DNA of 64,000 nt from Alkalibacterium sp. (lineage in GTDB: Bacteria; Bacillota; Bacilli; Lactobacillales; Carnobacteriaceae_A), in NCBI GenBank assembly GCA_020832185.1, contig JAFIFE010000025.1, positions 1 through 64,000 of the forward strand, given 5' to 3'. Both the position numbers and the translations under genes were made by a program. Shown here one piece after another: positions 12,424 to 14,804 of the stretch. Each line of letters begins with the position of its first letter. Within the stretch, counting starts at the first letter, position 1. The notes beneath the pieces are model-generated. The model had not been told where the DNA came from. It saw only the letters and a program-made list of their open reading frames with translations, and ran no database searches.

Positions 12424-13893
12424 CTAGTTAATATTTTCACCATTGTTAGAAATCAAATCTCTATACCAGTAATAACTTTTCTTTGGGATTCGTTTCATTT
12501 CTTTTTCATCTTGCTCAGTTCGGTCTACGTAAACAAACCCATAACGCTTTCTATAACCATTCAGCCAGCTCAATAGGTCTGTAAATGACCATGCACAATA
12601 CCCGATTAATTCTACGCCATCTGTGACTGCTTTTTTCATCTCCGTAATATGCTGATTCAAATAGTCAATTCGATAATTGTCTTCAATTGTTCCATCATTA
12701 GTTACCACATCTTTGGCACCTAACCCATTTTCAGTTATAAATAAAGGTAGATCATATCTAGCATATACTTGCCTTAAAGCCACTCGAAATCCAACTGGAT
12801 CGATTTCCCAACCCCATTCTGTTTTTTCTAAGTATGGGTTTTCAGTTGATTGAAACATCGGGACTTCAGGACTCTTCGACTGCTCTTCTTTGGGCTGCAT
12901 CAGATAAGGATCTGTTGCTGAAAAATTCTTACCCGTTTTTGTCTCAGTTGCTTTATTTTCCATTTTATTCTGAGCCACTGTTCCTCCATGGTAATAATTG
13001 ATACCCAGAAAATCAGGTTTTGCTTCCTTAAGCAATTCTAAATCTCCTGCTTTAATGGTAGGTGCAATGCCTTTTCGTTCAAGTTGCCTAAAGGTTGTGA
13101 CTGGGTACTTTCCTTTACAGTACACGTCAAGCCACCAGGTATTATTGAAGTCATTTGCATTTTCGGCAGCTAATATATCTTCTGGACTAGAAGTTAATGG
13201 GTATACAGGTCCATAACCGAAACTTGGACCAATTTTCCCTTGAGGTACCATTGTCCTGAACAACTTGATTGCTTCAGCATTTGCCAGATTGATGATGTGG
13301 TTGGCTTCAAATAAACGTTTAGTATCCGTTACATTTGGTGGGTGAGCCGCCCATCTGTATCCCATACTTGTAAACACATTCTGCTCATTAAATGTCACCC
13401 AATATGTCACTTTTCTACCTAAGCGCTCATACAACACTTGACAGTACTGGCTGAATGCTTTGATTACTTCTCTGGATTCCCATCCATTATATTTTTCCTG
13501 TAAGGCAAGAGGAAGGTCCCAGTGGTACAAGGTCAATACCGGTTCAATATCATTCGATATGAGTTCATCGACTAAATCCTCATAAAAGTCTAGCCCCTTA
13601 CTATTTACTTTTCCTTCTCCATCAGGAAGAATACGAGACCAGGAAACAGAAAAGCGGTAAGCTTTCAGTCCCATTTCTGCCATTAATTTTACATCTTCTT
13701 TATACCGATTATAGTGATCGATTGCGACATCTCCATTAGTTCCTTCAAACGTCTTCCCTGGAATCTTAGTGAAGTTATCCCACACAGAAAGCCCCTTACC
13801 ATCAGCTTCATAGGCTCCTTCTATCTGATAAGCAGCTGAGGCAGCTCCCCATAAGAAGGTTTCTGGAAAGGACTCAAGTTTGTCATGATACAT
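12424..13893 (-). CDS. GH1 6-phospho-beta-glucosidase/galactosidase
   Basis: A 489-residue cytoplasmic GH1 enzyme. The acid/base is Glu170 (TFNEQN) and the nucleophile Glu388 (FITENG). In place of the EW pair that binds the free sugar in ordinary beta-glucosidases it has Ser442-Trp443, followed by Lys449 and Tyr451 in [14 protein letters not shown]. This Ser/Lys/Tyr trio is the phosphate-binding signature of 6-phospho-beta-glycosidases; the Trp after Ser is more usual in 6-phospho-beta-galactosidases. The window has no PTS permease, so the 6-phosphate would have to be added in the cytoplasm, most simply by the ROK kinase encoded 14 bp upstream (inference). It forms an operon with the GH31 and GH42 genes. 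Confidence 0.88.
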
Positions 13894-13907
13894 GATTTGC
13901 TCCTTTA

Positions 13908-14804
13908 TTATTGTTTTATAGCCAGTTCACTGCTCTTGAAAAATGAGTAAGCGCCTATCAATCCTGCGTTGTTTTTATAAAATGCTGGTTCAATATCTGT
14001 TTTGTAATCTTTCCAGTGCGGGTTTTTTTCTAACTTTTCCAGCAACAGTGGCAGCAGGTTTTGATTAGCACTGATACCTCCTCCAACGACAATTTTTTGA
14101 GGATTAAAAGAGGCTGCAATATTAAACACGCCCGCAGCTAAGTATGTCACCCATTCATCAACCAAATCAGCTATCTCTTGGTCTCGGCTAATTTCATCAA
14201 AAATCAATTTGGCGTCAACCAGTGTAGAAGGGAATAAAAACTTCTTCTCTTTATACGATTTTATTAAAGCAGATGTAGATGCTAATTCATGCATCGTTCC
14301 GTCTGGATGGTTCCCGACATCTAGACGTATCATTCCAAATTCACCGGTCTTAAAATCTTTCCCATAAATTATTTTACCGTTAAACGCAATGGCCCCCCCA
14401 ATGCCCGTTCCAATAGTCATGAGCACAACATCCTGAAGTCCTTTAGCTGCACCGCTTGTCATTTCGGCCACTAAAGCACAGCGCCCATCATTTTCTACAT
14501 GGATGGGGTAGACAAAATGTTCTGCCAGCAAACGTTTAATATTTTTATTGTATAAATGACGAATAGCTCCAGCCGTAATGGTTTTCCCTGTCTGATTATT
14601 AACGATTCCTGGAATGCTGATTCCAATACCAGAAATCGCTGTTCTATTTTCATAATTCCTGATTTTTTTAACCAGCAGGCTGATAAATTCTTGCGTCGAC
14701 GATTGGACAGTAGGCGTGGACCCACGAGATTGTATCTCACCCTCATCGCTTATCAGTGCATATTTTATATCTGTGCCGCCTATGTCAAAACAAACAATTG
14801 CCAT
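13908..14804 (-). CDS. bglK: ROK family sugar kinase, beta-glucoside kinase-like
   Basis: About 298 residues. ATP-binding motifs are DIGGT (7-11) and TIGTGIGG (131-137), and the catalytic Asp is in VENDG (106). It lacks the zinc-binding CxCGxxGC motif of classical ROK glucokinases and repressors: the region after GEFG reads [16 protein letters not shown]. That, plus a TAGAIR motif and its length, resembles the BglK beta-glucoside kinases that phosphorylate cellobiose at C6' (from memory of the family; moderate certainty). The alternative is an ordinary glucokinase. The start at 14804 has GGGAG 8 bases upstream; the longer reading would run through the hairpin at 14840-14883. Directly followed by the phospho-type GH1 gene. 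Confidence 0.8.

Follow-up and report, generated by a model that had tools for sequence, protein, structure and literature searches.

The DNA analysed here, called the window, is a stretch of 64 kb (G000:C13:1-64000) within a 2.64-Mb bacterial genome whose assembly is about 95% complete. The closest named relatives of its GH31 gene come from Alkalibacterium olivapovliticus (88%) and A. pelagium (80%), which places the host in Alkalibacterium or near it. Our subject is a pair of neighbouring genes encoding a kinase of the ROK family and a glycoside hydrolase (GH) of family 1. Both lie in a minus-strand series that runs from 26214 down to 6027 in the order GH95, sensor kinase, AraC-type response regulator, YesL-like protein, unassigned protein, two permeases, substrate-binding protein, ROK, GH1, GH31, GH42 and GH5. 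The ROK gene is separated from the GH1 gene by 14 nt, and the GH1 and GH31 genes share a 20-nt overlap. The features are the following:

12424 to 13893, minus strand: GH1, predicted to be of the 6-phospho-beta-glycosidase type and Gan1D-like, 489 amino acids (Pfam Glyco_hydro_1, 593.5 bits)
13908 to 14804, minus strand: ROK kinase, 298 amino acids, proposed beta-glucoside (xyloglucan oligosaccharide) kinase (Pfam ROK, 164.7 bits)
14830 to 14893, minus strand: inverted repeat (arms of 31 nt) with a U-run after it, located between the genes for the substrate-binding protein and the ROK (z -2.97)
14895 to 16595, minus strand: extracellular substrate-binding protein of an ATP-binding cassette (ABC) importer (Pfam)
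16616 to 17563, minus strand: ABC permease (Pfam), presumably YtcP-like
17579 to 18568, minus strand: ABC permease (Pfam), which we take to be LplB-like
18682 to 19992, minus strand: lipoprotein-like protein without a Pfam match, kept in many related loci
19985 to 20695, minus strand: membrane protein kept in related loci, assumed to be YesL-like
20671 to 22161, minus strand: response regulator with an AraC-type domain
22149 to 23960, minus strand: sensor histidine kinase, identified by eye, kept in related loci
23962 to 26214, minus strand: GH95, the alpha-L-fucosidase family (Pfam)
10104 to 12443, minus strand: GH31 alpha-xylosidase (1245.4 bits; cut-off 606)
8012 to 10051, minus strand: GH42 beta-galactosidase (Pfam)
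6027 to 7919, minus strand: GH5 with CBM_X2 and CBM46, candidate xyloglucanase (Pfam; signal peptide by eye)

Judged by sequence, the genes between 26214 and 6027 read as a xyloglucan set, with the hallmarks of an ABC-type xyloglucan locus: an ABC importer made up of a substrate-binding protein and two permeases, a GH31 alpha-xylosidase, a GH42 and a two-component system. Four EIIC queries for the phosphotransferase system (PTS) found no match across the window (EIIA and EIIB lay outside this search), in agreement with the preliminary description, which had proposed ABC import without a PTS. One GH3 query likewise gave no match in the window, unlike the Ruminiclostridium cellulolyticum locus to which we return below. 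The open reading frame originally listed for the ROK is longer, starting at 14882 (324 amino acids); its relatives start at the Met at 14804 or within a few residues of it, and the stretch upstream of this Met is the hairpin. The repeat is attenuator-like and could set a high ratio of binding protein to enzyme; it was not on the list of a simple terminator scan.

The GH1 carries Ser442, Trp443, Asn445, Lys449 and Tyr451 and lacks the phosphomimetic Glu (Glu-P). Lys, Tyr and Ser are described as binding the phosphate, and neutral beta-glucosidases and beta-galactosidases as having an invariant phosphomimetic Glu (PMC3605045; this and the other papers cited here were available as excerpts, to which our statements about them are confined). 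The trio Ser442, Lys449 and Tyr451, named earlier from the GH1 sequence, proved exact in the alignment, and all five residues are identical in 40/40 aligned GH1s, a set that comprises the clade of our own enzyme, the window counted, and the nearest clade to it; the catalytic Glu pair E170 and E388 was found in 39/39 aligned GH1s. This set of 40 omits eight more distant GH1s of an earlier alignment, in which Ser is kept in 8/8 and Lys with Tyr in 7/8, L237:3781 having Asn in place of Lys. Among solved structures, the top relative is 7m1r, a 6-phospho-beta-galactosidase (667 bits), followed by three chains of putative 6-phospho-beta-galactobiosidase (655-650 bits), Gan1D entries among them; the best chain labelled beta-glucosidase, 8in1, scored 475.5 bits, and 1od0 scored 378. 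The Ser/Lys/Tyr site and the absent phosphomimetic Glu thus support the prediction of a 6-phospho-beta-glycosidase. In a relative, Ser, Lys and Tyr, with Asn in the same group, are described as bonding the carboxyl of pyruvylated galactose, and Gan1D has these residues around O6 in common with it (PMC6090015), so that the site should be taken as marking an anionic group near O6 and not phosphate alone.

The kinase is a ROK protein by both family and fold. It reads GEFGM...MHELAST, where the two glucokinases of the same genome read GEIGH...CTCG..GCLE. The absence of a CxCGxxGC zinc motif, pointed out previously, is borne out in that the protein has no Cys cluster, and the His of the ExGH motif is missing as well, being replaced by Met158 (Met or Leu in relatives). 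With 146.0 bits the protein falls under the cut-off of glucokinase model TIGR00744 (260.35), and with this threshold and the motifs failing, a plain glucokinase identity was not adopted. A resemblance to BglK had also been suggested, and it stands insofar as BglK (NF042998) is the best NCBIfam match; its score of 173.9 bits, however, falls far short of the cut-off of 550, and membership of BglK was rejected. A relative from Niallia scored 164.9 against the same model. In the tree, 4htl, which is labelled BglK and bears the entry title putative N-acetylmannosamine kinase, falls outside the ROK clade of 29, in a position made unsure by its long branch.

The evidence that ties the two genes together is comparative. 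Loci were anchored on GH31, which is neutral as to ROK and GH1 (best 80 of 176 relatives), and the 65 loci of at least 18 kb were tabulated; ABC here denotes a permease-like match above 60 bits in the locus DNA, a few of which may belong to neighbouring loci. ROK is present in 28/28 clusters having both an ABC importer and a GH1 of the xyloglucan clade. These include all 14 of the 65 tabulated loci with this combination, and five further loci with ABC and ROK in which the GH1 lies just beyond the first stretch and came to light in a wider stretch in four cases and, for L143, elsewhere on its contig; the remaining clusters are the window, L089, L044, L244, L245, L247, L250, L251/L255 and L252/L256. 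Near-copies occur within the 28 (L103/L104 and L244/L250), the contig of L245 stops before any GH31, and L244/L250 are without a close GH31, L250 having a remote one at 193 bits. Conversely, this ROK is absent from 26/26 full-length ABC-bearing GH31 loci without a xyloglucan-clade GH1, and no ROK was found at E 1e-48 in the 15 of those 26 searched genome-wide (the other 11 were not searched in this way). The 26 do include L105, whose GH1 is more distant and whose ROK, at 118 bits, is unrelated. They also include L120 and L140, where ROK-like matches are weak: 60 and 62 bits with the ROK queries, and 107 and 113 bits with the glucokinase query. Counted neither among the 28 nor among the seven PTS clusters described below are L112 (contig end, no transporter seen, ROK present), L232 (GH1 and GH43, no transporter seen, ROK absent), L246 (a 4.3-kb contig) and L253 and L254 (lone GH1 genes, no ROK). 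Loci whose GH1 lies outside the xyloglucan clade (L105, L046, L047, L048, L050, L039, L237 and L238) were also left uncounted.

Two of these uncounted loci deserve description in their own right. In Enterococcus sp. PF1-24 (L105:1529-12245), an ABC importer of another type accompanies a GH1 from outside the xyloglucan clade, an XylB-like gene, a GH31 and the unrelated ROK, which has an EFGY motif; here a ROK may have been recruited independently to work with a phospho-type GH1. In Jeotgalibaca caeni (L238:3580-13712), an ABC importer lies with a GH30 (Pfam), a ROK of the same clade as ours, a classic 6-phospho-type GH1 and a GH3, and it is possible that this is a second kinase-first locus, for another beta-glucan.

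Where the kinase is missing, GH3 or a PTS may be found instead. In Globicatella sulfidifaciens (L094), whose importer genes are 62-72% and whose GH31 is 65% identical, a Pfam-confirmed GH3 follows GH42; the locus has no ROK and no GH1. A search of its genome gave no ROK at E 1e-48 and, for GH1, nothing closer than a 57% match. The ROK is likewise missing from six Paenibacillus loci that combine GH31 and GH3 with a two-component system and ABC genes (L118, L119, L124, L129, L132 and L137). Seven clusters carry a PTS EIIC beside a xyloglucan-clade GH1 (EIIC confirmed by Pfam in three and by similarity in four; EIIA and EIIB not searched for): four are without ROK, two are cut by contig ends with none seen, and one has ROK. 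The absence of ROK from L109, L113, L167 and L233 agrees with genome searches; at genome scale no ROK of the same clade was found in G517 (none at E 1e-48) or in G536 (one remote ROK elsewhere), and in G498 and G514 the sole ROK of this clade sits in the ABC cluster. In both Enterococcus diestrammenae and Vagococcus allomyrinae, an ABC cluster that includes ROK coexists with an EIIC cluster that does not. In L109, L113, L167, L233 and L248, an EIIC stands beside a GH31 alpha-xylosidase and a xyloglucan-clade GH1, even though O6 of a xylosylated glucose is blocked.

Such an association could conceivably reflect nothing more than the inheritance of a single operon from a common ancestor, chiefly among Lactobacillales, in which ROK has an unrelated role in signalling or on another sugar. 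Many of the loci are indeed related by descent. However, two dissimilar ABC importers both accompany ROK and GH1, one with a substrate-binding protein of the window type (~680 bits or more) and one of an Enterococcus type (43-71 bits to that of the window), and on the GH1 tree the transporter type switches at least five times and ROK at least four times. Moreover, phospho-type GH1 and ABC genes also occur with an unrelated ROK in L105 and with a related one in L238. The test of independent pairs, for which 33/40 GH1 rows carry both traits (26 ABC, 7 EIIC), gave three concordant pairs, one without difference and none opposite (p 0.25), after two pairs, both concordant, on an earlier and smaller tree (p 0.5). 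The direction is consistent, with pairs too few for significance, and we regard common descent as a very unlikely explanation of the whole pattern.

We favour a model in which the kinase acts before the hydrolase, although a number of observations, the small number of pairs included, weigh against it. First, the NCBIfam model on which the GH1 scores highest is that of beta-glucosidase (TIGR03356), a near miss at 473.0 against a cut-off of 478.5, and no 6-phospho model was over its cut-off (best 403.7 against 639). Because these cut-offs were missed, we call the enzyme Gan1D-like and do not file it under the NCBIfam 6-phospho models; the GH1 of the EIIC locus L113 ranks the models in the same way (TIGR03356, 452.0) and failed the 6-phospho models too (377.5). 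Second, at least five of the 28 ROK clusters have a nearby GH3 (L091, L242, L244, L250 and L251), for which reason a rule that GH3 excludes ROK was dropped. Third, members of the ROK clade adjoin GH1 and EIIC in L039, L046, L047 and L237, where a phospho-type GH1 should have no need of a kinase, and one of the seven EIIC clusters, L243, has ROK, so that a strict rule by which EIIC means no ROK was given up as well; in L248 and L249, no ROK was seen on a 35-kb contig whose ends cut both clusters. Fourth, a sister pair of ROKs in Clostridium hydrogenum has no GH1 beside either gene in the 20 kb examined, and one of the two (L235:8940-17267) lies with ABC genes, a GH130 and an N-acylglucosamine 2-epimerase-family protein (Pfam), a context that suits a glucose or mannose kinase. 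Finally, we know of no measured activity for this ROK subfamily.

Several of these points would be accounted for if the ROK were instead the glucokinase of the locus, or a broad hexokinase, trapping free glucose, and if a relaxed GH1 cut neutral GXXG and cellobiose, with phosphorylation following hydrolysis. Xyloglucan yields glucose as one of its main products, most ROK kinases act on monosaccharides, and the sister pair, the ROK-GH1 pairs found with EIIC, the EIIC cluster L243 with its ROK and the beta-glucosidase model at the head of the GH1 scores all fit this alternative. On the other hand, two zinc-motif glucokinases, which pass the TIGR00744 cut-off with 344 and 319.6 bits, are already encoded elsewhere in the genome, and the ROK and its relatives have Met or Leu where the ExGH motif has His. 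The GH1, for its part, is without Glu-P and keeps its anion site in 40/40. GH31 loci with GH3 and an ABC importer should yield the same glucose, yet 8/8 of those without a xyloglucan-clade GH1, all within the 26, lack this ROK. On balance we consider this alternative rather unlikely.

A few further loci bear on the kinase clade itself. The genome that contains the window has a second GH1-ROK pair on contig C18 (L039:11628-13977), in which a ROK from the clade studied here partners a GH1 of the classic 6-phospho type, together with an RpiR-like regulator (by eye) and a PTS EIIC-like gene ~3.6 kb further on. GH1, EIIC and ROK also lie close together in L047:2607-6457, L237:7505-11446 and L046:8273-14100, where EIIC might act as a facilitator or ROK might take up released glucose. 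The sister-type ROK of C. hydrogenum in L235 stands in what is probably a phosphorolytic mannan route.

The identity of the kinase substrate raises another question. The preliminary description had the kinase act on the beta-glucoside that remains after trimming, and a version of this deserves attention, in which ROK phosphorylates only the disaccharide left at the end (cellobiose or a beta-glucoside like it), the earlier glucoses having been removed from neutral chains by the GH1 or by another enzyme. Known BglK acts on simple beta-glucosides. BglK has also been used to make 6'-phosphoglucosides (PMC3605045), and cellobiose is an end product in R. cellulolyticum (PMC4780118, PMC8576529). This version requires something else to cut GXXG, and no clear neutral beta-glucosidase was seen among the GH1, GH3 and GH94 proteins of the genome (other GXXG-cutting families were not searched), so that one GH1 would need two specificities. 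Seven of the eight GH1 matches in the genome could be aligned, and 7/7 have Ser at the Glu-P place; GH94 gave no match in the assembly, with the completeness given above. Two proteins count against our model: the eighth GH1-like protein, which is remote (56.2 bits, 414 amino acids), and the single GH3, which scores best as a beta-N-acetylhexosaminidase (107.9 against a cut-off of 207; BglX 82.9). A kinase confined to the last disaccharide thus appears unlikely to us, and the substrate would more likely be each terminal glucose of the chain from which xylose has been removed. Isoprimeverose makes little sense as the substrate of an O6 kinase, since the xylose sits on O6 of its glucose.

Our preferred model, by contrast, is that the locus probably encodes a PTS-independent, kinase-first branch of xyloglucan catabolism. 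Setting out from the gene content, the active-site residues and the cross-genome association, we infer the substrate of the kinase, the order of the steps and the need of the GH1 for phosphate in the following way. The secreted GH5 would cut xyloglucan, and the ABC importer would take up neutral oligosaccharides of the XXXG type, from which GH42 would strip galactose and GH95 fucose. GH31 would then take off the non-reducing terminal xylose, converting XXXG into GXXG and freeing O6 of the glucose; ROK would phosphorylate this O6 of the terminal glucose of GXXG; and the GH1, with its anion site at O6 and without the neutral-type Glu, would split 6-phospho-GXXG into glucose 6-phosphate and XXG. 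The cycle would repeat down to cellobiose, which would be phosphorylated and split into glucose 6-phosphate and glucose, and the free glucose of this last step would presumably pass to the zinc-type glucokinases. The general order of neutral import, phosphorylation by ROK and cleavage by a phospho-type GH1, as first proposed, gains support from the ROK-GH1-ABC association and from the absence of ROK beside most EIICs and of this ROK from ABC-GH31 loci without a xyloglucan-clade GH1. The cost in ATP would equal that of hydrolysis followed by glucokinase; in return, the oligosaccharide might be trapped in the cell and the level of free glucose kept lower.

BglK of Klebsiella pneumoniae, a member of the ROK family, is reported (JBC 2002) to phosphorylate O6 of beta-glucosides at the expense of ATP, a 6-phospho-beta-glucosidase acting next. 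The proposed order of kinase and GH1 in Alkalibacterium is alike, whereas substrate and locus differ, and our ROK, far under the BglK cut-off, does not group with the Listeria protein 4htl, whose own place in the tree is unsure. The K. pneumoniae enzyme is in use in PMC3605045 and PMC8660893. Gan1D and BlBglC, dual 6-phospho enzymes described for 6-phospho-galactosides and -glucosides (PMC10360150), have the same residue types around O6 and the same Trp as the GH1 studied here, which differs from them in being partnered by an ABC importer and a kinase. The R. cellulolyticum locus (Gal42A, Glu3A, Xyl31A; PMC4780118) shares with ours ABC import of large oligosaccharides, a two-component system, GH42, GH31 and stepwise trimming in the cytoplasm. 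There, XXXG is first converted into GXXG by the alpha-xylosidase, after which Glu3A, a GH3 enzyme, splits GXXG into glucose and XXG (PMC4780118), the place of Glu3A being taken in Alkalibacterium by ROK and a phospho-type GH1. In PTS routes, including the EIIC-GH1-GH31 loci L109, L113, L167, L233 and L248, the GH1 clade and GH31 are the same, and the phosphate would derive from phosphoenolpyruvate at uptake, with no ROK seen, as opposed to ABC and ROK here.

Adjoining the xyloglucan locus, at about 29953-56101 of the window (by eye), lies what reads as a locus for pectin and uronates. It comprises genes for sugar-acid enzymes, genes resembling those of GH28, GH105 and GH43, and ABC importer genes of its own. 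Rfam at the gathering threshold returned one tRNA and nothing else.

Three routes for cellobiose are well known: hydrolysis, phosphorolysis and the PTS (PMC6298952). Within the excerpts of the ABC-type xyloglucan literature examined, no kinase acting on oligosaccharides is described, the only ROK in the excerpts of PMC8576529 being a gene named Repressor Orf Kinase, in a xylulokinase operon and a figure legend. Nor was such a route recognised in the open-access literature from titles and the beginnings of abstracts, among the matches listed. The parts are known; their combination appears new.

Taken together, these comparisons lead us to a broader proposal, which we advance with some reservation as one that may or may not hold: that a fourth cytoplasmic route for beta-glucan oligosaccharides could exist beside hydrolysis, phosphorolysis and the PTS, in which Met/Leu-type ROKs phosphorylate the non-reducing glucose and the phospho-oligosaccharides are trimmed, across several genera within the Lactobacillales and Bacillaceae, in evolutionary exchange with GH3 or the PTS. 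Were this so, many of the oligosaccharide loci that are fed by ABC importers in lactic bacteria and their relatives would run via phosphorylated oligosaccharides, and the labels beta-glucosidase and glucokinase would be wrong for enzymes at such loci. The kinase could then serve to make 6-phospho-xyloglucan oligosaccharides, and the natural exchanges among GH3, kinase with phospho-type GH1, and PTS with phospho-type GH1 would allow the replacement of one sugar route by another to be studied.

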